This document shows, piece by piece, positions 11,522 through 31,500 of a stretch of DNA of 64,000 bases. A program made the translations under genes and the position numbers. The notes beneath the pieces are model-generated. The model had not been told where the DNA came from. It ran no database searches and saw only the letters and a program-made list of their open reading frames with translations. The stretch's first letter is position 1, and each line of letters begins with the position of its first letter. The stretch comes from Sphingomonas sp. C3-2 (lineage in GTDB: Bacteria; Pseudomonadota; Alphaproteobacteria; Sphingomonadales; Sphingomonadaceae), in the NCBI RefSeq assembly GCF_033025475.1, contig NZ_CP130322.1, positions 744,001 through 808,000 of the forward strand, given 5' to 3'.

Positions 11522-14034
11522 CAGGCAATGCCCTCCTCAGCCCCGCCCCAGACCCGGGCGATGGCGGCTTCTATCTTCTTTTCGAACCGGGCAATCAGTT
11601 CGCGGTTGGCATCGACAAGCCCCTGCTCGTCCTTAAGTTCAGCCACGATCGCTTGCTGGGTTTCGAGCGATGGAAGTGGCACTTGGTGGTCTTTAAGAAG
11701 GCTAAAATGCCTTCGGTAGCCATCCGTCGGCAGCGGGTACGCTTGAAGATAATAGGCGAGGTAGGCTGCGCTCAAATCGCCGACTGGTTTCAGTATTTTG
11801 ATGCCGTCTGCGCCCTGCACAAACGGTTGATCGACGAACTTGATGACACAAGTATGATCACCGAACACCACTAATCCATCGGCAGGTTCGATCACCGCAT
11901 CGGCACTGTCAGTCCAACCCGCAATGAACTCCTGCGACTGGTCTATGATCGGAAACTGGCCGGATTCGCGATACTCGCTGGTTTGCAGCTTCGCAGGCGG
12001 CGTGACCGTTGTTACGATTTCCTTGATAGCGCTAACTGGCCAGGCGGAATCGATGGGGATGTGGGGGCGGTAGTTTTCGAGGACGGTTCGGGCGCCGTCG
12101 ATGACCTTCTGATAGCCCTCAATCTCCGCCACAATTTCGCGCTGCATCTCAAGCGGCGGAAGGGGTATCTCGAAGCGTTCGACGAAATCCCTTGGGACAC
12201 GCTGAAGCCCGCCTGTGCCCGTCATATTGGAGATAGCTGGAGTGCGAAAACTCGGGTGCATGACGCAATGATAAACCCATTGAGCAAGAACTTGCTCGCT
12301 AGGACGAAGGACGTAAAACTCGCTGGAGCCGAAGCCGACACCATTCGTCAAACCTCGCGCAATCCCGGCTTTCCCGTTCTCAAAGCACGGCGTGACTTTC
12401 GCCAGCAATACATCGCCATTAGCAAAATAGGTGTAGCTCGCGCCCACTTCACCAAGTGGCTTCATTTCGCCGGGGACGAAGTTGATCCGGTGCTCATTAA
12501 GAACGGCCATGGGGACGAATGAGACCATTGTCTCAAGGGGAAGGCCGCCAATTTGCGATTTGCGCGGGTTGATGACGCAGACATCGCCGATCGGAACCCG
12601 TGGAACTGCAAATTCAGCCCGTGTTGCTTCCCGATACCGTTCCCCGCTCAGATTGTATTGACCGTCCTCACCGATCCGCGCCCTCTTGACTGCAAATCCC
12701 AGTGACGATTCCAGCGCCACCTCGTCCCCTCCGCGCACGGCATCCAGCCAAGAGCCCAGCCCGGCTTTTACCTGTGGCAATTGGCTACCCTTCACCGCGC
12801 GGCGCTGCGCGCCGAGGCCAAAGCCGTCATTCTCGATCTTGAAGAAGGCAATGCTGTCGCTTGCCTTGGCCACGGCGCGGTCGAGGATCAGGATCGAGGT
12901 CTTTACGCCCGAATAAGGATTGAAAACACCGGCGGGTAGCGAGATGACGGCGGCCAGATATTTTTCCACCAGCATCCTGCGCAGGTCGCAATATGCGCTC
13001 TGGTTCTGGAAGATGATGCCCTCGGGTACGACGATCGCGGCGCGGCCTTTGGGGTTCAGATGCTCAGCGATATAATCAACGAAAAGCACTTCGCTGCGCT
13101 TTGACGGCACGCCGAACCGGTTGTGCGGCTTGATCCCGCCCTTCGGCGACATGAAAGGAGGATTGGCGAGGATTACGTCAGCTGTTTCGCTCCATTTGCC
13201 TTCGCTGCTTAGCGTGTCGTATTCTTCCACCTTGGGATCGGCAAAGCCGTGGAGATAGAGGTTGACGAGTGACAGCCGCACCATGTCAGGCGATATGTCA
13301 TAGCCCTTGATGTTGCTGGCCAGCCGTTGCCGGTCTTCAGTCGTCAACAAGTCTCCGGAATAGCGTAATGGGCTGTCTAGCGTCGCTTCCGCCACGTCCA
13401 CTTCCACGCCCGTGCCATTGCCGCTCGCATCGGTCGAATTGGCTTTCAGGATATGCTTGTAGCTGGAAATCAGGAACCCAGCGGTGCCGCAGGCAGGGTC
13501 AAGGATCACCTCGTCTTTTGTCGGATCGATGATCTCCACCATGAAATCGATGATGTGGCGCGGGGTGCGGAACTGTCCCGCATCGCCCTGACTGCCCAGT
13601 ACCGACAGTAGATATTCGAACGCGTCACCCAGCCGTTCGCTGTGGTCATATGTGAAGGCGTTAATCTCGCGCAGAAAACTGCGCAGCGTTTCTGGATCGC
13701 GGTAAGGCAGATAGGCGTTGCGGAATATTGAGCGGAACAGCTCTGGGATGCCCGGATTCTCGACCATCTTGGTCAAGGCCTCGGTGTAGATATTGAGCAT
13801 TTCCTGCCCGCCGACGCCGGGCGCAACGAGCTTGGCCCAGGCATACCGCTCGAATTCCCCCGCGAAGAAAGTGCGCGCGCCGCCCATTTCCTCGGATTCG
13901 AGGTCCATGTCGTCCATGAACTTGTAGATCAGGGCGATAGTGATCTGCTCGACCTGACTCTTAGGGTCGGGCACCTTGCCGACCAGAATGTCACGGCAGG
14001 TGTTAATGCGGCGTTTGGTATCACTGTCTAGCAT
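11521..14034 (-). CDS. Fused type I RM modification-specificity subunit (HsdM-HsdS)
   Basis: An 837-residue fusion. Residues 1 to about 460 are an N6-adenine methyltransferase, with the SAM motif DPACGTAGFL (about 179-188) and catalytic NPPF (about 290). Residues about 470-830 are a specificity subunit with two target-recognition halves, each followed by a coiled-coil-like helix (PLPPLEMQREIVAEIEGYQK and PLPSLETQQAIVAELKDEQG). In most type I systems these are separate proteins. It follows hsdR by nine bases and overlaps the HEPN-like gene. It methylates host DNA at a bipartite site set by the two halves. Confidence 0.9.
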   Translation of the reverse strand: MLDSDTKRRINTCRDILVGKVPDPKSQVEQITIALIYKFMDDMDLESEEMGGARTFFAGEFERYAWAKLVAPGVGGQEMLNIYTEALTKMVENPGIPELFRSIFRNAYLPYRDPETLRSFLREINAFTYDHSERLGDAFEYLLSVLGSQGDAGQFRTPRHIIDFMVEIIDPTKDEVILDPACGTAGFLISSYKHILKANSTDASGNGTGVEVDVAEATLDSPLRYSGDLLTTEDRQRLASNIKGYDISPDMVRLSLVNLYLHGFADPKVEEYDTLSSEGKWSETADVILANPPFMSPKGGIKPHNRFGVPSKRSEVLFVDYIAEHLNPKGRAAIVVPEGIIFQNQSAYCDLRRMLVEKYLAAVISLPAGVFNPYSGVKTSILILDRAVAKASDSIAFFKIENDGFGLGAQRRAVKGSQLPQVKAGLGSWLDAVRGGDEVALESSLGFAVKRARIGEDGQYNLSGERYREATRAEFAVPRVPIGDVCVINPRKSQIGGLPLETMVSFVPMAVLNEHRINFVPGEMKPLGEVGASYTYFANGDVLLAKVTPCFENGKAGIARGLTNGVGFGSSEFYVLRPSEQVLAQWVYHCVMHPSFRTPAISNMTGTGGLQRVPRDFVERFEIPLPPLEMQREIVAEIEGYQKVIDGARTVLENYRPHIPIDSAWPVSAIKEIVTTVTPPAKLQTSEYRESGQFPIIDQSQEFIAGWTDSADAVIEPADGLVVFGDHTCVIKFVDQPFVQGADGIKILKPVGDLSAAYLAYYLQAYPLPTDGYRRHFSLLKDHQVPLPSLETQQAIVAELKDEQGLVDANRELIARFEKKIEAAIARVWGGAEEGIA

Positions 14035-14043
14035 GGGGCGCTC

Positions 14044-16683
14044 TTAGGGGAGGAAGCGGTTAAGGGACACATAGTCCTTGATATATTCCGGTATGCGCTT
14101 GCGCCATTCTGGCGGCACTTCCTTCAGGTCTTTCATTCCAAAGATCGGATTGACGTTGAGTTGGGTAAAGTGACCTTCGTCGATGGTTTTACGGACGCCC
14201 GCATCCTTGATGTAGGCATCAAAAAAATACCGCATCTGAGCGATCCGGTCGGCCTCTTCGGGCTTCTGGTCGAGCAGGAACTTCTGGAACTCGTCGTCGA
14301 TCAGCTCGTCCTTCGATTTGAAGCGCGGGATGTGGCCGAACGCCTTTTCGATGATTTCGCGCACTGTCAGGCGGCGATCCAGCCCGGCAGCACGGCGCAA
14401 CTTGTCGAGCGTGAAGAACTCGTCGGGCTTGTCGAACAGATGATCCATGACCCGGCGGACAGCAGCTTCCCAGTTTTGCTGCTCGACTATGGCGGCAAGC
14501 GCCGGATCGGCGCGGGCCATGTCCTCGAACTTCTGGAACAGCTCGCGGTCCACCCGCATGCCCTCTAGGCCGATTTGCTGCTCGTTTTGGCTGGTGATGC
14601 TATCAGGCTGGAATGTTTCGAAGCCCTTGAATGTGCGGCGTGACGATTCAACCGTTGATGTGAACGGCTGGGCACCGGGTTTGGGCAGCTTCAGCTCTTC
14701 ATTATAGTCAAACTTTTCTTCGAAGAATTCGCAGTTGGCGAAGAAGTCGAACAGCCGGAATTCGGTCTTCTCCAGCGAGGCGATTTCAGCCTTGCGGGCG
14801 GGATCGCGCATCTCCTCAGCGAAGCGATGCTTGCGGGTACCGCGACCTTTCATCTGCACGAAGTCCGAAGGGCTGAAGATCGGCCGCATCATTGCTAGGT
14901 TCAGAATGTCCGGGCAATCGTAGCCGGTAGTCATCATGCCAACGGTTACGCAAACGCGGGCCTTGCTCGTGGCATAGCTTTCATCGAAAGTACTACGTCC
15001 GCCAAGGTTGTTGTTCGCGAACTGGACCGTCATGGTCTGGGCAGTCGGGACCTCGCTGGTTACCTGCATAGCGAAGTCGGACTGGTATTTTCCCGGCCAG
15101 ATATCATCGGCCATTTCATTCAGAATTTGCGCAATCTTGGCGGCATGGTTCTGGCTGACGGCGAACACGATGGTCTTGCCGAATTCCCCGGTGACTGGGT
15201 CACGCAGTCCGTGGGTGAGAAGGGTCTCGCACAGAACGTCATTGGTCGCGTCGGCGAAGAACTTCTTCTCGAAGTCCCGACCGGCGAAAGCCTCCTTTAC
15301 CTCGTTACCGTTCTCGTCGGTCGCTTCTACGACGAAGCCTTCGTCGGACAAGAGCTGAGTGGTAATCTCGGTTCTAGCATCAACGACATAGGGGTTGATC
15401 AAGAACTTGTCGCGGACTCCATCGAGCAGCGAATAACGGAAGGTAGGCTCGCTTCCTTCGCATCCGAAAATGCGATAGGTGTCGAGCATCATGCGGCGTT
15501 CCGTATCACGCGGATCACGCGTGGCGGTGCTGCTCCGCGACTGCTTCAGATAGTCCTTTGGCGTGGCCGTGAGTCCGAGCTTGTAACCTACAAAATACTC
15601 GAAAACCGCGCGCGCGTTTCCGCCTATGGATCGATGGGCTTCGTCCGAAATCACAAAATCGAAATCTGTCGGCGCGAAAAAGCGCCGGAACTTGTCATTG
15701 AACAACAGCGATTGAACGGTTGTAACGACAATGTCCGCTTTTCGCCAATCGTCGCGCTGCTCCTTATAGATTACGCTGGTGAAATCATTCTTCAGAAGGG
15801 CCTTGAAGGCCTTGTCGGCCTGAACTTCCAGCTCGATCCGGTCGACGAGAAAGAGAACCCGCCGTGCATTGCCAGTCTTGAGAAACAGCTTGATGATCGC
15901 GGCAGAGGTCAACGTTTTGCCGGTACCGGTCGCCATCTCGAACAAGAAGCGCACGGCGCCGCTCTTGGCCGCGCGCTGCACAGCCTGAACTGCCTTCCTC
16001 TGGTACTCACGCAGAAGACGCAGCTTGGTTTTTTCGATGAATGAAGGGCGTTCAGTTTCATTTTTCCAGCCCGCTTCGTTGGCATAACCGGGCATCTGCG
16101 TCAGCGCTATGTAGTCGCGACCGACGATCTCGCTCGCTAGGCGCTCGGCATCAGGCTGGAAGGCGTGATGATCCTTTATCGCGCCTGGGCCAGGAAACTT
16201 TGTGATGACGCTCGGATTGCCCTGCTTGAGGTCCCATAGGTAGTGAATGTTGCCATTGGACAGGATCACGAAGCGTGCGTTCTGCTCGCGTGCATAACGC
16301 CTCGCTTGCTCTTTCGCTGCCAGTGGGTTTTTCCCCTCGGACTTGGCTTCGAGAACGATCAGAGGGCGACCATCAGTGTCGAGCAGGAGGAAGTCGATGA
16401 AACCGTTCTTGGTTGTCTCAAAATCCTGTCCGAGCGCATTGATCTGGACCTCTGTAATCTTGGTGTTGGGTTCCAATACGATATTTGCAGGACCCGCATC
16501 GCAGTCGAAGAAGCGCCATCCAGCCTCCTCAAGAAGCCGATTAATCTTGATCCTAGCAGTCGCCTCTTTCGCCCCCACAGATCCCTCACGCAAAATAGCC
16601 AGCCGTCTCCTACGCTGGGCTCTCTTTTGCGGCAAGCGATCAAATTCCTCTCTAAAGGCCGTTGTTTTTTCGAGACAATGCAC
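14044..16683 (-). CDS. hsdR: Type I restriction enzyme R subunit
   Basis: An 879-residue motor-nuclease. An N-terminal PD-(D/E)XK nuclease (GFIDFLLLDTD, then IVLEAKSEGK, about 95-118) is followed by a superfamily 2 helicase with Walker A (MATGTGKT, about 250), DEAH (ISDEAHRS) and C-terminal motifs (MKGRGTRKHRF), then an EcoEI-type R C-terminal domain. It translocates and cuts unmethylated foreign DNA together with the fused HsdM-HsdS. The annotated start is GTG 16683. A GTG at 16578 has a better ribosome site (AGGGA), so the protein may be 35 residues shorter. Confidence 0.9.
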   Translation of the reverse strand: MHCLEKTTAFREEFDRLPQKRAQRRRRLAILREGSVGAKEATARIKINRLLEEAGWRFFDCDAGPANIVLEPNTKITEVQINALGQDFETTKNGFIDFLLLDTDGRPLIVLEAKSEGKNPLAAKEQARRYAREQNARFVILSNGNIHYLWDLKQGNPSVITKFPGPGAIKDHHAFQPDAERLASEIVGRDYIALTQMPGYANEAGWKNETERPSFIEKTKLRLLREYQRKAVQAVQRAAKSGAVRFLFEMATGTGKTLTSAAIIKLFLKTGNARRVLFLVDRIELEVQADKAFKALLKNDFTSVIYKEQRDDWRKADIVVTTVQSLLFNDKFRRFFAPTDFDFVISDEAHRSIGGNARAVFEYFVGYKLGLTATPKDYLKQSRSSTATRDPRDTERRMMLDTYRIFGCEGSEPTFRYSLLDGVRDKFLINPYVVDARTEITTQLLSDEGFVVEATDENGNEVKEAFAGRDFEKKFFADATNDVLCETLLTHGLRDPVTGEFGKTIVFAVSQNHAAKIAQILNEMADDIWPGKYQSDFAMQVTSEVPTAQTMTVQFANNNLGGRSTFDESYATSKARVCVTVGMMTTGYDCPDILNLAMMRPIFSPSDFVQMKGRGTRKHRFAEEMRDPARKAEIASLEKTEFRLFDFFANCEFFEEKFDYNEELKLPKPGAQPFTSTVESSRRTFKGFETFQPDSITSQNEQQIGLEGMRVDRELFQKFEDMARADPALAAIVEQQNWEAAVRRVMDHLFDKPDEFFTLDKLRRAAGLDRRLTVREIIEKAFGHIPRFKSKDELIDDEFQKFLLDQKPEEADRIAQMRYFFDAYIKDAGVRKTIDEGHFTQLNVNPIFGMKDLKEVPPEWRKRIPEYIKDYVSLNRFLP

Positions 16684-17300: not shown

Positions 17301-18821
17301 ATGAACATGAAGTACGCTTCGGTAAGCTTGCTGGCGTTCAACCTTGCTGTTGTTGCCTCCAGCGCGTCGGCCCAAGGTCTGGGCCTTGCCGATCTCAAGA
17401 AGGTCGGCCAGGTCGACGAGCGCTACCAAGCTTATAATGTCGAGATGGTCGAGGTCACCGGCGGTCGGTTCTGGGCTCCCTATGGCGGGCCAGCCGGCGA
17501 AGTTTATCGCGAGCGCCCACCAATCGACCTCACGGATCAAAGGTTGATCCATCTCGCTCAGCATTTGGGGCCCAGCCTCATGCGCGTCAGCGGCACATGG
17601 GCGAACAACACCTATCTATTGGCGGACGGCGAAAAGCTGACCACGCCGCCCAAAGGCTATATGCAGATCCTGACGCGCGAGCAGTGGCGCAATGTCATCG
17701 CCTTTTCCAAGGCAGTCGATGCGCCGATTGTGACGAGCTTTGCGGTTGGAGCGGGCACGCGTGGCGTGGATGGCGTGTGGAAGACTGATCAGGCGCAACG
17801 GTTGGCCGACCTGACCCAGGCATTGGGCGGCACGATCTACGCCGCTGAATTCTTCAACGAACCCAATATGCCTGCCGCCACCATCGGCATGCCCAAGGGG
17901 TATGGCGCCACCAACTACGCAACGGATTTCAGGCTGTTCAAGGATTGGGCGAAAAAGACCTTGCCTGATATGAAGATTCTTGGCCCCGGAGGCGTCGGGG
18001 AAGGAGGGCTTATGCACCAGCCCCCCGTTAACGCTTTCGGCACACCTGTCCGCACCGAAGACATGATGAAAGCCAATCCGAACAGCGTCGATGCGGTGTC
18101 GTATCATTTCTATGGCACCGTTTCGCAGCGGTGCGCCGGGATGAATATCGGCACGGCCGTGAAGGAAGAGGCGCTTACGCCTGCATGGCTGGACGCAACG
18201 CTGCGCGATTACAATTTCTACAGCACGCTGCGTGACCAATATGAGCCGGGCAAGCCAATGTGGAACACCGAGACCGCACAGGCGGCGTGCGGCGGCTCTC
18301 CCTGGGCGTCGACCTTCCTCGACAGTTTCCGCTATGTGAACCAACTTGGTGCGCTGGCGCAGAAGAGCGTCCAGGTCGTTATGCACAATACGCTGGCGGC
18401 GTCGGACTATGCCCTGATTGATCAGGATACGCTAACGCCCCGCCCCAATTACTGGGCGGCGGTGCTATGGCGCAAGACCATGGCCAAGACCGTACTTGAA
18501 GCGCCGCAATCGCCCATGTCGAATTTGCGCGTTTATGCTCAGTGCCTGCCCGGCACCAAGGGCGGTGTGGGTCTGGTGGCGCTGAACACTGGTGGTGCGC
18601 CGCAATCGCTGGCGGTTGGTCGCAAGGCGCGCAGTTGGGTGATGACCGGGCAACCGCTTGATACGCGCAATGTGCTGGTCAACGGCCGGGCGCCGTCTAT
18701 CGACGGCAGGGGCATGCTGCACGGGCTTGATGGCGTGCCGGTGCGCGGCAAGCTCTCCATCCCCGGCCAGGCGATCGCCTTCGTGGCGGTACCCGACGCC
18801 GCCAATCCCGCTTGCGGTTAA
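17301..18821 (+). CDS. GH79-like secreted glycoside hydrolase (heparanase/glucuronidase type)
   Basis: A 506-residue protein with a signal peptide (SLLAFNLAVVASSASAQG) and a TIM-barrel glycosidase of clan GH-A. The acid/base Glu lies in AEFFNEPNMPAA (about residue 188) and the nucleophile Glu in PMWNTETAQAACGG (about 327), as in heparanase-like GH79 enzymes. A C-terminal beta domain follows. Predicted role: hydrolysis of glucuronic-acid-containing glycans in the periplasm or outside the cell. No transporter or sugar-pathway partner is nearby, and the gene sits alone between 40-bp direct repeats, which points to acquisition as a single cargo gene. Confidence 0.7.
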   Translation: MNMKYASVSLLAFNLAVVASSASAQGLGLADLKKVGQVDERYQAYNVEMVEVTGGRFWAPYGGPAGEVYRERPPIDLTDQRLIHLAQHLGPSLMRVSGTWANNTYLLADGEKLTTPPKGYMQILTREQWRNVIAFSKAVDAPIVTSFAVGAGTRGVDGVWKTDQAQRLADLTQALGGTIYAAEFFNEPNMPAATIGMPKGYGATNYATDFRLFKDWAKKTLPDMKILGPGGVGEGGLMHQPPVNAFGTPVRTEDMMKANPNSVDAVSYHFYGTVSQRCAGMNIGTAVKEEALTPAWLDATLRDYNFYSTLRDQYEPGKPMWNTETAQAACGGSPWASTFLDSFRYVNQLGALAQKSVQVVMHNTLAASDYALIDQDTLTPRPNYWAAVLWRKTMAKTVLEAPQSPMSNLRVYAQCLPGTKGGVGLVALNTGGAPQSLAVGRKARSWVMTGQPLDTRNVLVNGRAPSIDGRGMLHGLDGVPVRGKLSIPGQAIAFVAVPDAANPACG

Positions 18822-19351: not shown

Positions 19352-20689
19352 TTAGAGCTTGTCGAAAACGGAGCCCAAACGGGGTGCAAATAACCGTTCG
19401 TAGGTCTTGAGAAGATAGTTGTCTGTCATTCCAGCAACATGATCGCAGATTACCCTTAAGTCGCCTCCCGACTGCTGGTATTTCTTCAGCGCATCGGCAG
19501 GTAGCAAGCGCTTGGGATCCGATTGCAAGGCCTCGAAGACCGCCACCACCATGCCTTGTCCCTTAAATTCAAGGTGCTGCACATTGGGGCTTTTGATGAC
19601 CTCATCGACGACCAGCTTCTGCAAGACATCCAAGAAAGCGCGTTCCGGCTGACGAACTCTGGCGCGATATTTCAGGAGCGGCTCGATGAATTCCGTTCGC
19701 TCATCATATTCCACGGCAGCGATAAAGTGGTGCACCAGCCGGCCAATATAGCGTTTGCGCTGCCCGCTCTCGCCAAATAGGCCTTGGACCATGCGCGAAA
19801 AGACGGTGTCTTCATTTTCGTCTGGATACCGTTTTTTCAGCTCTTCGAGGAGCGAAGGGCATTTGCCTTCCACGGCTGAAACGAACCGCTCCTTGGAAAT
19901 GAGATGCAGCGCAATGGCGTCTTCAAGGTCGTGGACGCCGTATGCAATGTCGTCAGCGGCATCCATGATGCTGCAATCGAGCGATTTGTGGCGTGGCTTG
20001 TTATGCTTGCTTTTGTCCCCGTCCCATGTCTGAAACTCGCGACGGTCATGGTCGGTCAGCGGCTTGAGAATCCAATCTACAATCTCTTGCTCGCTGTCGA
20101 GATAACACTTGGGGGGCTTGCTGGCATCGGTATCGATGATCCGCAGCGTGGTTGGCTTTTCGGCCAGTTTGGGAATGATATCGGGATTGCGAGCCTGAAA
20201 GAATGGCACAGGATATTTCAGAACGCCCAGCATCGCCCGGCGAGTTAGGTTTGCGCCGGCGCCCTTGGAAAAATCCTCAAGCCGGGCAAGGATACGCAAG
20301 GTTTGCCCATTGCCTTCAAAGCCCTGATCTGCGGGCATGCAGTAATTGAGCGCGACTTCGCCGCCATGCCCGAACGGCGGGTGACCGAAGTCATGAGTCA
20401 GGCCGATGGCCTGAATCAGAGCGCGGTCCGGCAGAAGGCTGCTTGCCGGATGCTGGGGGAAGGAAAAGCCCAACTGTTTGGCGATGCCGCTGGCGATCTG
20501 CGCCACTTCCAGCGAGTGAGTCAGACGGGTGCGATAGAAGTCGCTATCTCCGAGATTGAGGATCTGGGTCTTCCCCTGCAGCCGGCGGAACGAGGCCGAG
20601 TGCACAACCCGCGCATAGTCAATTTCCTCATCGCTGCGGGAATCGTCAGCCTGACGCGGAGAGGTCTCACGCCGCTCGCTCCAACTCAT
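19352..20689 (-). CDS. dgt: dGTP triphosphohydrolase (HD domain)
   Basis: A 445-residue dGTPase-family enzyme that hydrolyses dGTP (and often other dNTPs) to the deoxynucleoside and triphosphate. The HD metal site is visible: His in RTRLTHSLEVAQIA, His-Asp in GLTHDFGHPPFGHGGE, and the later Asp in AADDIAYGVHDLEDA. Start at ATG 20689, with GGAG at the right spacing. It lies 63 bp after the glycosylase gene, same strand, as the last gene of the QueC-like operon. dGTPases are known antiphage effectors through dNTP depletion. In this operon that role is an inference, and it may instead be a housekeeping-type dGTPase. Confidence 0.85.
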   Translation of the reverse strand: MSWSERRETSPRQADDSRSDEEIDYARVVHSASFRRLQGKTQILNLGDSDFYRTRLTHSLEVAQIASGIAKQLGFSFPQHPASSLLPDRALIQAIGLTHDFGHPPFGHGGEVALNYCMPADQGFEGNGQTLRILARLEDFSKGAGANLTRRAMLGVLKYPVPFFQARNPDIIPKLAEKPTTLRIIDTDASKPPKCYLDSEQEIVDWILKPLTDHDRREFQTWDGDKSKHNKPRHKSLDCSIMDAADDIAYGVHDLEDAIALHLISKERFVSAVEGKCPSLLEELKKRYPDENEDTVFSRMVQGLFGESGQRKRYIGRLVHHFIAAVEYDERTEFIEPLLKYRARVRQPERAFLDVLQKLVVDEVIKSPNVQHLEFKGQGMVVAVFEALQSDPKRLLPADALKKYQQSGGDLRVICDHVAGMTDNYLLKTYERLFAPRLGSVFDKL

Positions 20690-20752
20690 ATGGTCTCCAA
20701 CCTGCGCTGCGGCTACACCTTTGCCCACTCGGACAGTTCAGCGAACGCAATC

Positions 20753-21412
20753 TTAAAATACTAGCTCAAGTTGCGGTCGAACTGCACCAGACTCACGAGA
20801 CCAAACCCAAGCATCGAACTCTCTTCGCGAAATTGAGAGAAGGTCGGCCGCAAAGCAAAATGAGAGTTTTAGGAAATCGTAATCGCTATCTCGCAAGCCG
20901 GCTTTCGCAGCAAACGTTCTGATGTGCCTATCCACGGCGATGGAATCGATGCCAACCAGGCAGCACATATAATCAACTGTCTTTGGTCCAACACCGCTTA
21001 ACGACTGCAAATCGCTTCTGAATCGAGTTGTTCCGAGGGCCTCGCGAATATCAGCCGTCGTATCCAGTCCCTCGCGGTGCATGAATCTGACCAGCCGGTC
21101 AAATCGAGATATCTTCACGGGATGTTGCCAATCCAGGAAGTCACCGCCGCGCCCGCCCTCAACGAGAGGCAGCAGGGTGCTGATCGTGTCGACGTTCGGG
21201 AACAAGCGCAAAATGCGTTCCACGCGTGGCAGAACCACCGCACGATAATTCAACCCTGCTTGCAATATCGAATCCGCGAGGACTGCGCCTACATGCCCGT
21301 AATCGGCGCGTCGTGCGCCAGAGGCAGACGGAGCCCCTTCATTCGAAGCGAAATCAGCGACCTGCCGCGCCGCCTGCAAGATTCTTCCTCGATTGGGCTG
21401 CGCTTGAGTCAC
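20753..21412 (-). CDS. HhH-GPD DNA glycosylase, OGG/EndoIII-like
   Basis: A 219-residue protein with a helix-hairpin-helix and Gly/Pro-Asp signature: SLSGVGPKTVDYMCCLVGID, then IAVDRHIRTFAAKAG (about 140-175). Both the catalytic Lys (in GPKT) and Asp (in VDRH) of bifunctional glycosylase/lyases are present. No C-terminal iron-sulphur cysteine cluster of the EndoIII type is seen, and the DYMCCLVG context is closer to OGG1. It begins with GTG at 21412, whose first base is the last base of the QueC-like TAG stop codon. An OGG-like enzyme beside a QueC-like enzyme recalls type IV CBASS. Substrate base unknown. Confidence 0.75.
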   Translation of the reverse strand: MTQAQPNRGRILQAARQVADFASNEGAPSASGARRADYGHVGAVLADSILQAGLNYRAVVLPRVERILRLFPNVDTISTLLPLVEGGRGGDFLDWQHPVKISRFDRLVRFMHREGLDTTADIREALGTTRFRSDLQSLSGVGPKTVDYMCCLVGIDSIAVDRHIRTFAAKAGLRDSDYDFLKLSFCFAADLLSISRREFDAWVWSRESGAVRPQLELVF

Positions 21413-22035
21413 TACGATAGTCCCGTTTGGTGGAGGGCGCTTAGGCGCTCAACGCAATTAGGGCAAGCTCCGCAAGGGAGTGTGCTGGCTGCCTGGCACG
21501 AGAATGTCCGCCCGATCGGAACGCCGAGCCGTAACGCTTCTTGCGTGACGTCAGCTTTCGATGCGTAGCGGAACGGCGACGTAAAGCGCACTGGCCCGAT
21601 GTTCTCGGTCAGCCCGTCGAGCTTGTTCATGAATTCTGCCGTACAGTCTATCTCTTTAGCATGATTGCTATTTATGAAACCGGTAAACACATCGACGATG
21701 TTTAGGGTTTGAGCTCTTGCTGCTGACGCGGCATAGAACAAAAGGGTTCTATATGGAACGTAAAGATCGTCATCTTTAACGTCGTCATGCCACAGATTTG
21801 CCTCTTCAATCAGACGTGAAGTGGACCCTCGAAAAATATCGGATATGTCAATCCTTTCGGGACATCTCATATCGCGCGGAAGCACCTCGTTAACTCGGAT
21901 CCACTCCGTTTCCACGCAGTGCTGACCGTAGTCAAAAAACAAGGGATAGACAGCCTTCCCACTAGCATGCAGCGAATATGCGACAGTAGTAGAGTCCAGC
22001 CCACCCGATGCAAGGAGCATTACTTCTCTATTCAT
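21412..22035 (-). CDS. QueC-like paralogue (7-cyano-7-deazaguanine synthase family)
   Basis: A 207-residue ATP-pyrophosphatase-family enzyme with the PP-loop SGGLDSTTVAYSL at the N-terminus. The QueC zinc site is complete at the C-terminus (SCQAASTLPCGACPNCVERL: four cysteines). Housekeeping QueC turns carboxy-deazaguanine into preQ0. No other queuosine gene (queD, queE, queF, tgt) is nearby, so this is likely a specialised paralogue. QueC-like proteins occur in type IV CBASS, where they are reported (from memory, unchecked) to attach a deazaguanine to a protein N-terminus. It overlaps its upstream neighbour by four bases. Confidence 0.8.
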   Translation of the reverse strand: MNREVMLLASGGLDSTTVAYSLHASGKAVYPLFFDYGQHCVETEWIRVNEVLPRDMRCPERIDISDIFRGSTSRLIEEANLWHDDVKDDDLYVPYRTLLFYAASAARAQTLNIVDVFTGFINSNHAKEIDCTAEFMNKLDGLTENIGPVRFTSPFRYASKADVTQEALRLGVPIGRTFSCQAASTLPCGACPNCVERLSALHQTGLS

Positions 22036-23360
22036 CCAGCAGAACCCCTTTCGATCCGCCCCAGAGCTTCGAAGACCGCGTTAAGGCTAATATCGAGATC
22101 AGCTGAGTAAGAAGCGCTGCCATGGACGACCATCGTATTGCGATTTTCGTGACGAGGGTCGTATGTGATGACGGGCTTACCCATTTCCATGGCCATTCCA
22201 ATCTCCACCAACGTACCGGGGTCTCGATCGATGGGAATCGCGAAAACCGCAGCACATTCCCGGAGTAGTTCAACATCGTTGAAGAAAAAGGAGGCAAGGG
22301 ATTCGAGAGGCGCATCGGGGGCTGCCTCCCCGTTTTCCTGAACAGGTCGTCTCACTCGAAAATTGTGATATCGCAATGCCGAAAGAGCGGCATCTATGTC
22401 TCGATGGTTGGCGTACGAAAAATCCGGTGCAGCGAGGTATATCGGGAACATCGGTCGCACGTGCCATGGCAAGGTCACGCCCCCCAGCTGCCGCACATTG
22501 TCGACGGTGAGCCTGAATGCGCGCTGCACGTCGCGCCGGAAGTCGTCAGGCCAAGTTGTCTGGGAGTAAACCGTTGCAACTTGCATGCCGCGCCAAGCAG
22601 CGTCCCGCACGGTGCCGTCGAAGCAACCGAAAACGGCTGTGAACGCGTCCCCCACGCCCACAGAGTTGACCGTTACATCGAGCGTTGCGGTTATGCGCTC
22701 CACTGTGCCGTTTCGAAGGTCGAAAAGTCTGCTTCCACCTCGATTCTCTTTCAAAAGAAGATGAGCAACTCCGACCTGTCGCGCGAGTTCGAGAAGGGGG
22801 GATACGTCCTGTGACGCTAACCGCATGAATAGCTCGGATGAAGTAGAAAGGACGAGACGGCTTACACGCCCGTTTGCAAGCTCCCGTAAACTGGCCTCTC
22901 CCATGTCGTACGCCGCGTCCAAGGTGACGCACGCGTTAGGATCAGCCGCTTGCAACACCTTGCTGAGATCGTAGCGCCCCGGGAATACCACAATCCGTTC
23001 GAATTCCATCAGCGTTGCAACATCACCGATGGAAGAGATTATTCGTTCGCTACGAAGAATGTCTTCGTATCCTTGATGCCCCACTTCTTGGACGTCAGCG
23101 ATTGCAATTAGATTGGGCGCGCCGGTCACTTCGCCAAGCAGAACAAACTCTTCGCAGCCATGCTCCAAGAGATATTTTCGTGCCTGCTCCACCAAATATG
23201 CGGGGCAAAATGCACCGACCGAGTACGATTGGCCAACTGCCCAAAGACCTCGTGCTGCGTGGACAATGCCGCCTAGCCTAACTTTTGCTTCGACGTTTCG
23301 GCTGGGCATGGTGAAGTCGATCGTGACTTCACCTACGATGATGGGAGTCGACGCCGGCAT
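22032..23360 (-). CDS. PfkB-like kinase fused to nucleoside deoxyribosyltransferase
   Basis: A 442-residue two-domain protein. Residues 1 to about 300 resemble PfkB/ribokinase sugar or nucleoside kinases, with the C-terminal anion-hole motif in VNSVGVGDAFTAVFG (catalytic Asp kept). Residues about 308-440 resemble nucleoside 2-deoxyribosyltransferases: PIYLAAPDFSYANHRDI, then RDPGTLVEIGMAMEMGKPVI with the nucleophilic Glu. The fusion could phosphorylate a nucleoside and swap or release its base. It starts one base after the small protein's stop (TAAATG) and overlaps the QueC-like gene by four bases, so expression is coupled. Confidence 0.7.
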   Translation of the reverse strand: MPASTPIIVGEVTIDFTMPSRNVEAKVRLGGIVHAARGLWAVGQSYSVGAFCPAYLVEQARKYLLEHGCEEFVLLGEVTGAPNLIAIADVQEVGHQGYEDILRSERIISSIGDVATLMEFERIVVFPGRYDLSKVLQAADPNACVTLDAAYDMGEASLRELANGRVSRLVLSTSSELFMRLASQDVSPLLELARQVGVAHLLLKENRGGSRLFDLRNGTVERITATLDVTVNSVGVGDAFTAVFGCFDGTVRDAAWRGMQVATVYSQTTWPDDFRRDVQRAFRLTVDNVRQLGGVTLPWHVRPMFPIYLAAPDFSYANHRDIDAALSALRYHNFRVRRPVQENGEAAPDAPLESLASFFFNDVELLRECAAVFAIPIDRDPGTLVEIGMAMEMGKPVITYDPRHENRNTMVVHGSASYSADLDISLNAVFEALGRIERGSAG

Positions 23361-23732
23361 TTAGTTAGCCACAAAATCTGCGTGTACCTTCGGGTTTGCG
23401 CCATTTGACGAGTGGGTCACTACGCCGGTATAAGTGAAGCCATCTTCGATGCAGCCAGCAAGATAGTTAAATCGGGTAGGAATCGATCCTACGGTTTCCG
23501 TTCCTGCGACAGCTACAACTCGCCCTCTAACCTCAATTGTCAGTTTGGTGCCAACGGGAGGAACACTTCCGTGATTTGCATAGAATTGATGGCTCGCCAC
23601 ATCTTCTAGAATCGCGGCAAACGCTTGGCCGCATTTATCGGATCCGCTTGCGCCGCCTGAAGCTCCAGCACCCAAATCGGATTTAGGAGAACCGGAATAA
23701 TCACTGAAATTTCCAGATCCGCTGCTACCCAT
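23361..23732 (-). CDS. Small Gly/Ser-rich protein, first gene of QueC-like operon
   Basis: A 123-residue protein of no recognised family. The N-terminus is low-complexity and flexible (MGSSGSGNFSDYSGS, then GAGASGGASGSDKCG). Residues about 36-123 look like a compact beta-rich domain (VGTKLTIEVRGRVVAVAG, GFTYTGVVTHSSNG). The start at ATG 23732 is clear from a strong GAGGAGGGGG site. After Met removal, residue 2 is Gly. This exposed Gly/Ser-rich N-terminus ahead of a QueC paralogue makes it a candidate protein substrate for nucleobase conjugation (inference). The stop directly abuts the kinase-fusion ATG. Confidence 0.65.
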   Translation of the reverse strand: MGSSGSGNFSDYSGSPKSDLGAGASGGASGSDKCGQAFAAILEDVASHQFYANHGSVPPVGTKLTIEVRGRVVAVAGTETVGSIPTRFNYLAGCIEDGFTYTGVVTHSSNGANPKVHADFVAN

Positions 23733-24119: not shown

Positions 24120-25289
24120 TCACATAAGATCCTCTACAATTTCTCCGATTTGATTAGCTGCTGCTAAGGCGGGATCCGCATCCACATGCGCGTAACGCAA
24201 AGTAGTTTGCGCCTGTGAATGGCCCAACAACCTCCCAATTATTGGAAGGCTTGCACCTTGCCCTACCGCTATGCTCGCCGCGGTATGCCGGAGATCGTGT
24301 AGCCTCACTCCCTCAACCCCAGCGTCTTCACAGACCCTCATCCATGGCTTACGTAAATTTACCATCGGCTTGCTCGCGACTTGACCAGGAAAAACAAAAT
24401 CAGATCCCGCAGCAATCTCTCTTTGGCGCTGGAGCAATGCCAAAGCGGCATGACTCAAATAGATCGCCTTTTCTCCAGTTTTGCTATCAGGCAAAATGAG
24501 AATCCGGCGCTCCCAATCAATCCAGGACCATTGAGCCGTTAGCAACTCGTTTAGACGTGCTCCGGTCAACAACAACAAGTGCATGACATTCGCCGACGAA
24601 GGAAGTAATTTACCTTGCGCCACAAGCTTTTTAATAGATATTCCTACCCGCTGAATTTCTTCAGCTGCTAAGTATCGAGTTCGAGGCTTTTCATCATATC
24701 GCTGTATATAGCGACAGGGGTTACTCCCCGCCTCGCGCCATTCCCAGACCTCTGCGAGCGTCATTAGACGCGAACAGAGTGCAAGAACGCGGTTTGCACG
24801 GTACGGCGCATGTTTCATGCTTTTGTGAAATTGATCAATTTCTCCGCGTGATATCCCATCGACCGTCCGCCTTCCAAATTTAGGTCCGATAAGGTCACGC
24901 CACTGACTTTGATATTCCTGTCGCGTTTGCGGCTTTCGAAGCTGAAGATACTCGCCCTCAAAGCGAATCCAGACATCATTTAGCGTTGGTGCGCTACGAC
25001 GCTTAAACTTTTCCCCTTGCGGATCCTCCCCACGCGCAACGGCTGCCAAGACCTGTTGCGCCATCCCTCGGGCCTGGTCGCAAGTAACCTGCCCATGTCC
25101 ACCCAACGAAATCCAGCGCTGTTGAGCTCCCCTTCCGCCCCCGTTCGCACGATACTTCACGACGTATTTCTTACTACCGCTAGGCAGAGCCTTAACCCCA
25201 AAGCCAGCGATCAGATCGTCCCAGAGAAATACTGGCCTAGCCCCAACACACTCCAACGTATCGACAGACCTTTTCGTTATCTTAGCCAC
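24120..25289 (-). CDS. int: Tyrosine integrase (tRNA-targeting, P4-like)
   Basis: A 389-residue integrase with an N-terminal arm-binding DUF4102-like domain (FLWDDLIAGFGVKALPSG, about 21-38), a core-binding domain and a C-terminal catalytic domain. The catalytic residues are Arg in TGARLNELLTAQW, His-x-x-Arg in LHDLRHTAASIA, His in LLGHSQAQTT and Tyr in LRYAHV. It lies about 200 bp from the tRNA-Lys fragment at 25481-25532, its likely attachment site. It drives integration and excision of the island segment to its left. Confidence 0.92.
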   Translation of the reverse strand: MAKITKRSVDTLECVGARPVFLWDDLIAGFGVKALPSGSKKYVVKYRANGGGRGAQQRWISLGGHGQVTCDQARGMAQQVLAAVARGEDPQGEKFKRRSAPTLNDVWIRFEGEYLQLRKPQTRQEYQSQWRDLIGPKFGRRTVDGISRGEIDQFHKSMKHAPYRANRVLALCSRLMTLAEVWEWREAGSNPCRYIQRYDEKPRTRYLAAEEIQRVGISIKKLVAQGKLLPSSANVMHLLLLTGARLNELLTAQWSWIDWERRILILPDSKTGEKAIYLSHAALALLQRQREIAAGSDFVFPGQVASKPMVNLRKPWMRVCEDAGVEGVRLHDLRHTAASIAVGQGASLPIIGRLLGHSQAQTTLRYAHVDADPALAAANQIGEIVEDLM

Positions 25290-25786: not shown

Positions 25787-26389
25787 TCATCCGCGTTCCA
25801 TCTCGTACTCGTCGAGCATGCGATAGCGGATGCGGATCTCATCCGCATCGCTTCGCAGCTTGCTGCGGTCGCTGAAGGGCGTGGCTGGGTCCTCGGCTCG
25901 CGCTTCCAAGATGCGGGCGCGCAGCAACTCGTCCGGACCACTAAGCGTGCCGACCGCTTCTAGCTCTTGTTCCGCACCATCGTAGTCACTCTGGGCGAGT
26001 TTGATTCGCGCCTCAAGGCCGGCAACTGCACCCACCGCTCCTCGCGCCTTCAGGAACTCAATGTCCTCACGTGCCACGCGAAGGTCACCCGCCTCGGCCG
26101 CTGCGACCGCGCGTAACCGTCGAATGAAGGTTTGCCCGCCCGAGCCCCGTTGCAGCACGTCGGTCAGCATTGTCTTAGCTCGACTAAAGTCTTGGTCGCG
26201 CCGCATGATCAACATGGCCTGCCTGCCGTCGGCATAAACCTCCTGGCGATTGAGCGAGCTAAGGGTGCGAATGACCCGCTCCGCCCCGCTCCAGTCGCCC
26301 TGTGCAATAAGCATACCCGCTTGCACGTCGAGCAGGACCGGATTCCTGCCGATGTATGCCTCCTGGCGCGCGAACTGCCTGAAGCTCAT
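25787..26389 (-). pseudogene. C-terminal fragment of a TPR-like protein
   Basis: A 200-residue open frame of helical repeats (GDWSGAERVIRTLSSL, QDFSRAKTMLTDVLQRG, AEAGDLRVAREDIEFLKARG, QSDYDGAEQELEAVG) typical of TPR-like domains, with no catalytic domain. The frame begins exactly at the junction with the truncated DUF2075 gene and lacks a ribosome site, so the N-terminal part of a larger protein has probably been lost. Many large defence ATPases end in such repeats, but the parent cannot be named. Confidence 0.55.
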
Positions 26390-28150
26390 GCGTTTATAGA
26401 GTTCCTAATTCCACGAATGGGCCGGCGTGCGGACCTAATCCTGTTGGTCGATGGCGTTGTCTTTGTCATTGAATACAAGCTCGGGGCGATCCAATATGAC
26501 CGTTCTAGTCTTGACCAAGTCTATGGATATGGGCTCGATCTCAAGCACTTCCACGAGCCAAGTCACAACCGGACGATTGTTCCCATATTGGTCGCCACCC
26601 ACGCGCCTGATAATTACGGGCGACCGTTTCAATGGGATGATGACAGGCTAGGACGACCATTGGGCGTGAACCCTGAAGGGCTCCTGCCGGCTATTCATCA
26701 TATGTGCCGTGTCTATGGCGGCGCCGATAATGATGCAGTGGCCTGGGAGGCCGGGCGCTATCGGCCGACGCCCACGATTGTTGAGGCGGCCCAGGCTCTC
26801 TATCGCGGTCATGCGGTTGAGGAAATTTCCCGCTCGGAGGCCGGGGCGGAAAATCTTACCCATACAGCCGACTATGTTGCCAACGCGATCGAGTTAGCCA
26901 AGCGCGACCGTCGTAAGATCATCTGCTTCGTTACAGGGGTGCCAGGCTCGGGAAAGACCCTCGCCGGCCTCAATTTAGCTACTGCGCGACAGCGCGCGCA
27001 CAGCGATGAGCACGCAGTATTCCTTTCGGGGAATGGCCCCTTGGTCGATGTATTGCGTGAGGCACTTGCATTGGATGCAGTGGCAAGAGCACGCGAGGAC
27101 GGCGTCAAAACATCCAAGACCCAGGAAGATCGTCGCGCCGCCGCATTCATCCAAAACATCCATCATTTTCGCGATGACGCGCTCGCCTCGCGCGATGCCC
27201 CGGTTGAGAAGGTTGCGGTATTTGACGAGGCCCAACGCGCTTGGGATGTCGAGCAGACGTCAAAGTTCATGCAGCAGAAAAAGGGACAAATCGGCTTTTC
27301 CATGTCAGAGCCGGAGTTCCTGCTTTCCGTAATGGACAGGCACGAGGATTGGTGCGCGATCATCTGTTTGGTTGGCGGCGGCCAAGAGATCAACACCGGG
27401 GAAGCCGGCATCGAGGAATGGCTGCGCGCGCTGGAGCGTAGCTTCCCGCATTGGCAGGTACATCTTCCCGAGAGCTTAGCTCATCCCTGCCAACTGACCG
27501 ACGAGGTATCGACGCCCGCGCTTCATCTAGCTACTTCGCTGCGATCGTTCCGTGCAGAGCGCCTGTCTGATTTCGTGGGTCATGTGATTACCGGCAATGC
27601 CTCGGCTGCGAGACAGGTCAACAAGGAGCTGACCAACTTTCCGCTCTACGTCACCCGCGACTTAGATCAGGCGCGGCGTTGGCTACGTTCCAAGCGTCGC
27701 GGCGCCGAGCGAGCCGGGTTGTTGGCCTCGTCTAATGCGGCGCGTCTCAAGCCTCATGGCGTGTTCGTGAAAGCTAAAATTGAGCCGGCTAAGTGGTTCT
27801 TGGCCCCCAGCGACGACGTGCGATCTTCCGATGCGCTAGAGGACGCGGGAACAGAGTTTGACGTCCAAGGACTGGAGTTGGATTGGACGTGCTTGTGCTG
27901 GGATGCAAATTACCGCCGCGTTGGTGATGGATGGCGGGCTTTACAGTTCAAGGGCACGCGCTGGCAGGCGGTCAATGACGAGGCGCGTAAGGCATATGTT
28001 GCAAATGCCTATCGTGTTTTGCTTACCCGTGGCCGGCAAGGGATGGTGGTGTTTGTACCCGAAGGTTCAGATGAAGATGCCACACGGATGCCAACCGTCT
28101 ATGACGACGTCTATTCCTTCCTGGTGGAATGTGGGTTTGCCCCCTTGTAA
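26390..28150 (+). pseudogene. DUF2075 / Schlafen-like helicase protein, 5'-truncated
   Basis: Homology begins abruptly at about 26400 with EFLIPRMGRRADLILLVDGV and FVIEYKLGA (nuclease-like Asp...Glu-x-Lys core). It continues with Walker A (VTGVPGSGKTLAGLN), a Walker B-like VAVFDEAQRAWD, and the DUF2075 C-terminal part (LTRGRQGMVVFVPEG). Full family members carry roughly 80-100 more residues before this point. Here the upstream frame reads antisense through the TPR fragment instead. The first in-frame ATG after the junction is 26417 (no clear ribosome site). It encodes a predicted DNA/RNA helicase with a nuclease-like domain, probably inactive as a gene. Confidence 0.65.
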
Positions 28151-28539: not shown

Positions 28540-31500
28540 TCAATGAAAATCGCGCGATTTTGGGATGACGCGAACATCGCGGGGGTGCTTGCGCAACTGA
28601 CGGGGCGCCTGCGGATGGCGAACTTCGTCCCCTGGCGAAGCGCAGGCTGTCTTGCTTCCGCGATCGTCGAGCATCTCCAGCATTGCGCTGCGGTCGAACA
28701 CGCGGTTGACCATGAGATGGACCACATCTTCCTTGCTGCGCTGGATTACCCCTTCGATCACCATCAGCCGTGCAGACATGACCGCACGGCGCTGACGCTC
28801 CATGTCACGTGACCAGAGCAGGGCATTGGTAATTCCGGTCTCATCCTCGATGGTGATGAACACCGCGTTGCCCTTGCCGGGACGCTGGCGGATCAGCACG
28901 ACACCGGCAACACGCAGTTTGCGACCATCCGGCGCATGATTGGCGGCGTTGCAGCTTGTCACACCTTCGCGAGTGAGGACTTCGCGCAGGAACTGCAGTG
29001 GATGCCCTTTCAGCGAAAGCCGGACGGTCTGATAGTCTGCCACAACCTCTTCAGCGCGTGTCATTGCAGGCAGGTTTGCATCCGGCTCACGTCCCAGTTC
29101 AGGGGCTTGCGCGGCGGTAAAGAGCGGGAGTTGGTCGGGAGGATTGCGACGCGCTTCCCACAAGGCCTCGCGCCGGGTGAGGCCAAGCGAACCCAATGCA
29201 TCGGCGTCGGCCAATTTGCGCAACGCTGCCGGGGGAAGCGCGGCCCGCGCCGCCAGATCCTCCAGCGACACGAAACGACCTGACTGCCGCCCGGTCTCAA
29301 TCGATACGGCCCAGTCCCGGCGAAATCCGTCGAGCCGCGAAAAGCCGAGCCGCAGCGCCAGCCCATTATTATCGTCGCGCGGTTCGAGCGTGCAGCCCCA
29401 TGCGCTAGCATTGGCATCTACGGCGCGCACATCCACGCCGTGATCGCGGGCATCACGCACCAGTTGGGCGGGGGCGTAGAAGCCCATGGGCTGGCTGTTT
29501 AACAACGCGGCGGTGAACACCGCCGGATGGTGACACTTGAGCCATGAGGACACATAGGCCAGCCAGGCGAAGGCCTGCGCATGACTTTCAGGAAAGCCAT
29601 ATTCACCAAAACCACGGATCTGTTCGAAACACCGCTCGGCGAAGTCCTTGCTATAGCCGCGCGCAGTCATGCCACCGACCATCAATTCATGGTAACGATC
29701 AACCGTGCCGCGATTGCGGAAAGTGGCCATGGCGCGCCTGAGTCCATCGGCCTGCGCGGGTGTAAATTCGGCTGCCACCATCGCCAGCTTCATGGCCTGC
29801 TCCTGAAAAAGGGGGACGCCGAGCGTCTTGCCCAACACCTCGCGCAGTTCATATGGATCGTGGGGAGGTGCCGGCTGCGGATAACGCACCGCCTCTTCCT
29901 CGTTGCGGCGACGCAGATAGGGATGGACCATCCCACCCTGGATCGGCCCCGGCCGCACGATTGCCACCTGGATCACCAGGTCATAGAGTTCGCGCGGCTT
30001 CATGCGCGGCAGCATGGCAATTTGCGCGCGGCTTTCGACCTGAAAAGTGCCGATGCTGTCTGCGCGCTGCAACATCCTGTAGGTATCTGCATCCTCGCGC
30101 GGGACAGTGGCAAGGCTGAGGTCGCCAAGATCATGTCGGCGCATGAGATCGAAGCTCTTGCGGATGCAGGTCAGCATGCCGAGCGCTAGTATATCGACCT
30201 TCATCAGGCCGAGCGCGTCAATATCGTCCTTGTCCCATTCGATGAAGGTGCGGTCTGGCATGGCCGCATTGTGGATCGGCACCAGTTCATCGAGCCGTCC
30301 CTGGGTCAGAACAAAGCCACCGACATGCTGGGAAAGATGCCGGGGAAAGCCCAGAAGCCGATCGACAAGCGTCTTGAGGCGGGAGATCTCAGGGTTGGCG
30401 CTGTCGAACCCGGCCTCGGCCATACGGCTCTCGGGCACGTCGTCACCCCAACTCCCCCAGATCGTGGAGGAAAGCCTTGCGGTCACGTCTTCCGTCAGGC
30501 CCAGCGCCTTGCCCACCTCGCGCAGCGTGCTGCGTGGACGATAATGGATGACGGTGGCCGCGATCCCGGCGTGCTCACGTCCATAACGGGCATAGACATA
30601 CTGCATGATCTCCTCGCGTCGCTCATGCTCGAAATCGACATCGATATCGGGCGGCTCGTCACGTTCTTCGGAGAGGAAGCGAGAGAATAAGAGTTTTTCG
30701 TGAACCGGATCGATTGGCGTAATGCCTAGGAAATAGCAGACCAGCGAATTGGCGGCACTGCCACGCCCCTGGCAGAGGATCGGCGGATCAAGGCTGCGCG
30801 CATAACGCACAATGTCGTGAACAGTGAGGAAATAGCAGGCATAATTGCGCTTGCGGATCAGCGCGAATTCCTGATCGAGCACGACGCGGTACGCCTTGGG
30901 CAAACCGTCCGGAAACAAGGCAAGCCCGCCCTCCTCTACCAGATGCTCCAGCCAGCCTTGCGGCTCCCATCCGGCAGGAACGGGCTCAAGCGGATATTCG
31001 TAGCGCAAGTCATCAAGAGAAAAAGAAATCCGAGCCAGAAACGCGGTGGTGGCCGCGATCGCTTCGGGGCAGGCGCGAAACAAGCGGGCCATTTCATCAG
31101 GCGACTTCAAATGTCGTTCGGCATTGGGCGCAAGGCGCTTTCCCGCCGTGTCGATGGTCACACCCTCGCGAATACAGGTGAGGATATCGTGCAGCGCGCG
31201 CCCACCGGAATCGGCATAAAGCGCATCATTGGTGGCGATCAGCGGCACGCCGAGCGAGGCCGAAACCATCCGCGCTTCTTCCAATCTGCGCGCATCCGTG
31301 CCCGCCCGCAGCATCGTCACCGCAAGCCATAGTCGATCAGGACAGGCGGCCTTCAAGGCGCCAAGGGTCCTGCGATCCGGCTGCGTGACAATCAGCGCAA
31401 TGTCTTGCGCGTGCTCCAGCAGGTCCGATAGGTAAAGCGTACAATCACCCTTGCTCGTGCGTCGGTTGCCCAGCGTCAGCAGGCGGGTCAACTGCCCCCA

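Follow-up and report, generated by a model that had tools for sequence, protein, structure and literature searches.

Conjugation of a nucleobase to a protein has so far been reported in one defense system and is suspected in a second. In the type IV cyclic oligonucleotide–based antiphage signaling system (CBASS), the QueC relative Cap9 joins 7-amido-7-deazaguanine to the N terminus of a CD-NTase (PMC11996544), which carries an N-terminal glycine within an MGGS motif (PMC13279940). In QatABCD, the corresponding partner, QatB, is an α-helical protein whose long tail is disordered and whose MGTS start is essential (PMC13279940). A further group, cluster-4 QueC proteins encoded beside a fusion of PfkB and nucleoside 2-deoxyribosyltransferase (NDT), has been interpreted as serving purine salvage (PMC13329287). 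Here, we analyze a QueC-containing operon in a 64,000-nucleotide stretch of Sphingomonas sp. C3-2 (contig NZ_CP130322.1, positions 744,001 to 808,000; hereafter, the window). The operon is a four-gene unit on the minus strand (20753-23732) with a dGTPase gene behind it; it is horizontally mobile and probably antiphage. One of its products, a small Gly/Ser-tailed protein, is likely the acceptor of a modification, a role overlooked in an earlier note made from the letters of this DNA alone.

The operon resembles type IV CBASS in that a QueC-like and an OGG-like protein stand beside a partner with a Met-Gly start (that OGG is part of type IV CBASS is taken from the earlier note and from the name of the PADLOC model). 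It differs in that a PfkB/NDT fusion replaces the TGT-like protein (Cap10), in that the candidate acceptor is a 123–amino acid HIRAN-like protein, and in that a tyrosine of the base site is replaced by glutamate. No TGT match was found among the operon proteins, which do include the QueC-like and, with a weak match, the OGG-like enzyme. No CD-NTase was found among the five proteins encoded at the locus and the tested neighbors in the window, the flanks of relatives having been checked less than exhaustively. The suggestion of the earlier note that QueC stands here in an arrangement of its own, with no CD-NTase, is thus borne out for the window’s operon, which lies next to an integrase and defense genes. 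With QatABCD, the operon shares the pairing of a QueC relative with a partner whose tail is disordered and whose N terminus reads MG(T)S (PMC13279940). However, it contains neither QatA nor QatD, its 207–amino acid QueC lacks the N- and C-terminal extensions of QatC, and the small protein is predicted by AlphaFold to be mostly β, whereas QatB is α-helical (PMC13279940). No description of the four-gene operon or of its small protein was found in the literature searched.

All five minus-strand genes that the earlier note had placed near an integrase are present (Table 1), and a sequence check of each junction between the first four agreed with its description. The ATG of the PfkB/NDT gene follows immediately after the stop codon of the small gene (CTAACTAAATGCC), the PfkB/NDT and QueC-like genes overlap through ATGA (GGATGAAT), and the QueC-like and OGG-like genes have one G common to TAG and GTG (CGTAGTGAC). 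A Shine-Dalgarno–like GAGGAGGGGG is located upstream of the ATG of the small gene. Genome contigs scanned once with an alignment of PfkB/NDT yielded 57 loci, of which 52 have all four genes on a single strand and in the order seen here. The other five comprise two loci at contig edges (L049 and L053), one with the first two genes only (L014), and two with a partial PfkB/NDT match (L062 and L063). The gene order is thus conserved in other genomes beyond what chance would give, and the glycosylase, whose separation from the rest in relatives had been considered, stays with the unit in the same 52 loci. Conservation as a unit covers the first four genes and leaves out the dGTPase. By record title, the carriers are Alpha-, Beta-, and Gammaproteobacteria, one Deltaproteobacterium, and, at four loci (L058 to L061), Bacteroidota; an oddity specific to this strain was rejected on the basis of this spread.

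The distribution is sporadic. In the host family, full-length PfkB/NDT was found in 1 of 397 genomes, the window’s own, with distant partial matches in three more. Four records of a plasmid collection match most of PfkB/NDT, and the three inspected, from Proteus, Cupriavidus, and Neotabrizicola, contain all four genes; the Proteus version had no match to Escherichia coli at the DNA level. Nine IMG/VR contigs also contain PfkB/NDT. In a PHROGs scan (10 of 86 open reading frames from seven viral contigs), a tape-measure gene was found ~2 kb after the operon on two contigs, L066 and L071, and a portal gene ~3.5 kb before it on L066. On these (pro)phage contigs, the operon is placed as if it were phage cargo.

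The small protein, P0001, begins with MGSSGSGNFSDYSG and has a Gly/Ser-rich tail. Of the 52 distinct copies from genomes (54 loci including two duplicates), 51 have a start codon followed by Gly at a distance of exactly 10 residues before a DY motif, which served as the sole anchor; the Met-Gly start of the type IV CBASS partner thus recurs here. In 23 of these 51 copies, there is no alternative in-frame start before a stop. The sole miss, L044, was anchored to a chance upstream DY, and its real tail reads MGSTGSGSFSDY; L013 was counted although its start is GTG and the residues that follow deviate. An earlier count of 51 of 51 was partly circular, since starts had been set by the pattern [MV]G[ST], and the underlying tabulation covered neither L013 nor duplicates nor any viral locus. 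Along the small protein, conservation sets in at residue 1: The top-residue fraction is 0.14 to 0.36 upstream versus 0.42 to 1.0 in residues 1 to 15, with values of 0.94 to 0.98 at residues 1 to 3 and 1.0 at D11 and Y12. At the same loci, Gly2 was present in 2 of 55 PfkB, 0 of 51 QueC, and 0 of 51 OGG proteins.

In the AlphaFold model of the small protein, 22 of the first 30 residues lie in stretches with a predicted local distance difference test (pLDDT) score below 50, while a confident domain extends from about residue 31, with scores of ~87 to 96 by block. The protein had no match in Pfam, PADLOC, or NCBIfam. The best Foldseek matches in the PDB were the HIRAN domain of HLTF (4s0n/4xzg) and lp_0118, and the predicted fold can be described as HIRAN-like. 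With hhalign, eight bacterial HIRAN domains aligned collinearly with the small protein, though weakly (P 0.012, Prob 1.7). The alignment has a gap at the NPYD loop, but the eight domains (of 31 loci) had been picked by a pattern that includes the NPYD motif itself. In HIRAN domains, an NPYD-type loop contacts the DNA 3′ end; DNA binding is not claimed for the small protein. Judged from the anatomy, an unrelated fold with the same type of tail as QatB and the CD-NTase partner, encoded next to a QueC relative, suggests protein conjugation. Modification of a protein, with P0001 as the likely acceptor, is therefore the best reading of the operon.

P0003 matched PF06508 (E = 2e-29; 103 bits versus a cut-off of 22) and retains the SGGLDS adenosine triphosphate (ATP) loop and the four zinc cysteines. 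For the profile of the operon QueC family, Cap9 (9nto) was the best PDB match (5e-16), close to E. coli QueC (3.5e-15). The Asp of the YxDC motif, which reads the guanine edge, is kept. P0003 scored 89 bits with TIGR00364, below 150, and 10.8 bits with the QatC model, whose cut-off is 280. In a tree of 37 QueC sequences, the operon proteins formed a clade of their own (support 100/99, 19 rows) beside canonical (95/88, 8 rows), TIR-type (98/98, 6 rows), and cluster-4 (100/100, 4 rows) clades; the tree had no Cap9 or QatC rows, and canonical L207 to L210, L214, and L218 were left out. A housekeeping QueC was rejected because of this separation from the eight canonical rows and the EIDC and VPYRT motifs; grouping with housekeeping QueC, which the earlier note had named as a danger to its proposal, did not occur. 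The host genome has a separate canonical QueC, and the gene for it adjoins QueE.

The nearest published observation found is that of cluster 4 beside PfkB/NDT (PMC13329287), and the window’s QueC belongs to a different clade and has a different zinc motif. Cluster-4 loci share with the operon a PfkB-NDT fusion next to QueC, and L006 and L120 to L122 add an OGG gene and a small Gly/Ser-tailed protein, which goes unmentioned in the available part of PMC13329287. The differences are the separate clade (100/100 versus 100/99 for the operon), the zinc motif [CH(x)5CxxCxGCxK versus CQ(x)6CGACPNC], and the small protein, which begins with MSG; the operon small-protein profile did not match L120 to L122 at E 0.01. 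The comparison was made by motif and tree, without rebuilding the network published in PMC13329287. A nitroreductase gene (PF00881) is also present in L006, and L120 has a divergent HTH_3 gene. L120 and L122 have a nitroreductase-like gene, for which Pfam gave no match.

In P0002, the NDT part was recognized by PF05014 (E = 1.2e-13), and the PfkB part was weak by sequence (E = 0.07). The kinase part has a ribokinase-type fold in the AlphaFold model (mean pLDDT 92.8), with fold matches to ketohexokinase, ribokinase, and pseudouridine kinase (E 1e-13 to 1e-11). Among 47 aligned fusions, the kinase GVGD motif and Tyr308, Asp362, Asp380, and Glu386 of the NDT part are invariant. The OGG-like P0004 gave a PADLOC OGG match of 0.0058 and, in Pfam, helix-hairpin-helix (HhH) motifs only, under the cut-off; the best PDB match of the family profile was 8-oxoguanine glycosylase, at a weak 5.7e-4. 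Lys144 (GVGPK) and Asp161 (VDRH) are invariant in 41 aligned glycosylases. We take these residues of the NDT, PfkB, and OGG-like proteins to be catalytic.

The neighborhood of the operon was assessed with PADLOC (E ≤ 1e-10) on 263 flanking proteins, encoded by no more than three genes on either side of the operon at 49 of the 57 loci. Omitted were L009, L014, L017, L049, L053, L056, L062, and L063, which are copies, contig ends, or partial loci, except that L009 was dropped without good reason. Among the matches listed, limited to the 25 most frequent families out of 297 and 308, there were 10 to dGTPase, 4 each to the PtuA and PtuB models (Septu), 2 to KwaB (Kiwa), 2 to 3 to type I methylase, and 2 to specificity subunits. 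The control set of 132 proteins from 19 stretches of carrier genomes, taken at fixed contig positions and not at random, contained no dGTPase, Septu, Kiwa, or type I restriction-modification match; its seven families were mad3, mad8, AriA, SspA, DndA, PDC-M43B, and HTH_VI. Flank matches of the AriA and mad3 types were not used, since both occur in the control. A defense neighborhood is thus supported both for the window, with its type I restriction-modification genes and integrase, and for the relatives. The defense role itself we infer.

P0005 reached 545 bits with the NCBIfam model NF041026 “antiphage_dGTPase” (cut-off 400), which places it with the dGTPases known for antiphage activity. The first residue matched is number 16, with an in-frame ATG two residues earlier, so the true start is probably ATG 20689, which leaves ~60 bases between the glycosylase gene and the dGTPase. 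Unlike in the earlier proposal, the dGTPase is a neighbor and not a fixed part of the operon: Only 10 of 49 loci have a dGTPase gene within three genes of the operon, and these 10 enzymes, from no fewer than three lineages, are encoded on both sides and on both strands. A fixed five-gene operon was rejected on this count, and the lineages and varied placement suggest repeated recruitment. Chance neighborhood was also rejected (10 of 263 flank proteins versus none of the 132 in the control set; one-sided Fisher test, P 0.016); since L016, L018, and L054 are near-copies, the loci number 8 if these are counted once. A sharper binomial estimate rests on a guessed three dGTPase homologs per 4500 genes.

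We consider it reasonably probable, though far from certain, that the QueC-like protein fuses an activated carboxylated base to Gly2 of the small protein, that the NDT/PfkB fusion and the glycosylase supply or rework this base, and that the output affects deoxyguanosine or deoxynucleotide pools, with the dGTPase adding to the effect where present. The sequences and models show the anatomy of the operon, its conservation, the acceptor-like tail, the intact motifs, the separate clade, the sporadic occurrence, and the defense neighbors; that QueC acts on the tail, which base it uses, how the steps are ordered, what the output is, and that the system defends its host are inferences. Removal of Met would expose the N-terminal Gly on the flexible tail. 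Using ATP, the QueC-like enzyme would then adenylate a carboxylated base that has a guanine edge and join it to the Gly through an amide bond. PfkB/NDT and the OGG-like glycosylase may produce the base or its (deoxy)nucleoside, take it away, or build on it, and the conjugate would serve as the switch by which the system is set. Deoxyguanosine/deoxynucleotide metabolism would be the most likely target of the output: The dGTPase could convert dGTP to deoxyguanosine, from which NDT would release or exchange the base. Such an output may be why dGTPases are repeatedly adjacent. If this is correct, Proteobacteria and Bacteroidota possess one more acceptor, unrelated in structure and accompanied by other enzymes, and nucleobase-protein conjugation would look like a general immune strategy. 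A different reading would also be suggested for PfkB/NDT-QueC neighborhoods filed as purine salvage, together with a reason for the gathering of dGTPases beside such loci.

Several points weigh against conjugation to the small protein, which was proposed from sequences and models. The match to the HLTF HIRAN domain is structural only and modest (probability 1.00, TM-score 0.51, E 8e-3, with no match below 1e-3), and Pfam HIRAN matched none of 53 small-protein members. PADLOC of 2023 matched neither the small protein nor PfkB/NDT, and a tblastn search of 50,697 deposited phage records with the small protein gave no match. The restriction of the flank counts to the commonest families and the nonrandom choice of control stretches count on the same side. 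In the QueC-like protein, the canonical YPDC is changed to EIDC, so that the position of the stacking Tyr (Y115 in Cap9; PMC13279940) is taken by Glu128, invariant in 46 aligned sequences, and the canonical VPxRN reads VPYRT, so the base may not be a deazaguanine. Last, 15 of 44 tested carriers gave no match to either canonical QueC or QueE (11 of the 15 are isolates by title).

The base bears on how closely the operon follows type IV CBASS. Strict deazaguanylation, in which the QueC-like enzyme would link 7-carboxy-7-deazaguanine (CDG) from the queuosine pathway of the host to the small protein, agrees with Cap9 being the closest solved homolog by profile, with the retained Asp for the guanine edge, and with the presence of QueC and QueE in the window’s genome, but the loss of the stacking Tyr in all aligned sequences and the composition of carrier genomes make it unlikely. 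Queuosine genes were searched for in the genomes of 44 of the 57 loci and in the window’s own (the QueE query consisted of three rows). Canonical QueC was found in 26 carriers; 17 had no match to QueE and 12 none to the QueD family, which was also without a match (PF01242) in the window’s genome. Twelve of the 15 carriers negative for both QueC and QueE lack a QueD-family match as well. The QueC and QueE calls agree in 39 of 44 carriers; some false negatives exist, as two metagenome-assembled genomes (G430 and G432) have canonical QueC and no QueE match, and the 15 double negatives come from assemblies of unstated completeness. In three Bacteroidota carriers, G428 (L058), G429 (L061), and G439 (L059), QueD-family and QueE matches were present, with no canonical QueC beyond the operon copy. 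In a third of the tested carriers, the base is therefore unlikely to be CDG from the known pathway, although CDG could still come from the medium or from phage. Together with Glu128, these carriers point to another carboxylated base or an external one, and the “deazaguanine” part of the earlier proposal is not sustained. The carriers without QueC and QueE make the question of which base is used directly testable. A tentative variant, to which we give some credence but which we doubt, is that a base other than host-made deazaguanine, supplied by the NDT/PfkB fusion and the glycosylase of the operon, is fused to the N-terminal Gly of the HIRAN-like small protein, which would be a new kind of protein modification. 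Since glycosidic and phosphate-ester bonds are what NDT and PfkB-type enzymes form, the tag might then become a protein-bound deoxynucleotide and serve as a warhead or signal against phage DNA synthesis.

Other explanations do without a conjugate or assign it a different purpose. Gly/Ser-rich tails are common linkers and no modification has been observed, so the tail could be a linker and the QueC product a free small molecule; we regard this as quite unlikely, given position-specific conservation from residue 1, which a free linker would not show, and the similar motifs, MGGS and MGTS, that both known QueC systems have (PMC13279940). The operon could also serve purine or nucleoside salvage and have no role in defense, the view held of the analogous cluster 4 in PMC13329287; this would suit enzymes that act on bases, nucleosides, or nucleotides. 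We find it decidedly improbable for an operon that occurs at full length in a single genome of the host family, adjoins an integrase, lies among phage structural genes on two viral contigs and beside defense genes elsewhere, and combines an OGG-like glycosylase with a constant Met-Gly–tailed small protein. The glycosylase, with its invariant Lys and Asp, could instead sense modified phage DNA by excising an unusual base, which NDT/PfkB would process and QueC attach as an alarm, an idea that would account for carriers without a host source of CDG. There is no direct evidence on the glycosylase substrate and, to our knowledge, few phages carry unusual DNA bases of that kind, so such a sensor appears highly improbable. 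Conjugation of a carboxylated base to Gly2 is the explanation we retain.

Table 1. Location of the operon, its neighbors in the window, and related loci. Coordinates without a prefix are positions in the window.
Feature	Location	Strand	Remarks
Small protein P0001, 123 aa	23361..23732	-	Disordered tail and HIRAN-like domain; proposed acceptor
PfkB (ribokinase-fold)/NDT fusion P0002, 442 aa	22032..23360	-	
QueC-like ATP-dependent ligase (predicted) P0003, 207 aa	21412..22035	-	SGGLDS loop, Cys4 zinc site, EIDC
OGG-like HhH glycosylase P0004, 219 aa	20753..21412	-	GVGPK...VDRH
Antiphage-type dGTPase P0005	ORF (open reading frame) 19352..20728; likely start ATG 20689	-	Recurrent neighbor, not core
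Tyrosine integrase	24120..25289	-	PF00589, 9.3e-22; upstream of operon
Type I restriction (HsdR-like) subunit	14044..16683	-	
Type I methylase and specificity domains (HsdM-HsdS–like)	11524..14034	-	
Schlafen-type helicase	26132-28147		PADLOC candidate PDC-S41
DnaE2-type polymerase III alpha and ImuB-like Y-family protein	28543-33410		Probable mutagenesis cassette
GH79-like glycosidase	17301-18818	Opposite to operon	
Canonical QueC adjoining QueE, window’s genome	G000:C1:2856574-2857862		
Operon on (pro)phage contigs	L066:613-13204; L071:5558-13155		
Cluster-4 type loci	L006:6255-9835; L120-L122		OGG, MSG-start small protein, PfkB/NDT, QueC
TIR and QueC loci	L004:3703-8065; L005:3661-8055; L177:1010-1477; L178:1008-1478; L179:2093-2575; L184:2087-2566		ThsB-like TIR (PF08937)

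Two further features of the window flank the locus. On the integrase side, a DnaE2-type polymerase III alpha gene and a gene for an ImuB-like Y-family protein probably form a mutagenesis cassette, and a GH79-like glycosidase gene lies on the opposite strand between the restriction genes and the dGTPase. A sister arrangement was observed at other loci, where a ThsB-like TIR protein (PF08937) that starts with MGGGSSGS or MGGGG is encoded beside QueC. Two of these loci, L004 and L005, additionally contain genes for an OGG-type glycosylase, a TIR-TGT fusion, and a PfkB kinase, and the arrangement looks like a QueC system with a tagged TIR partner.

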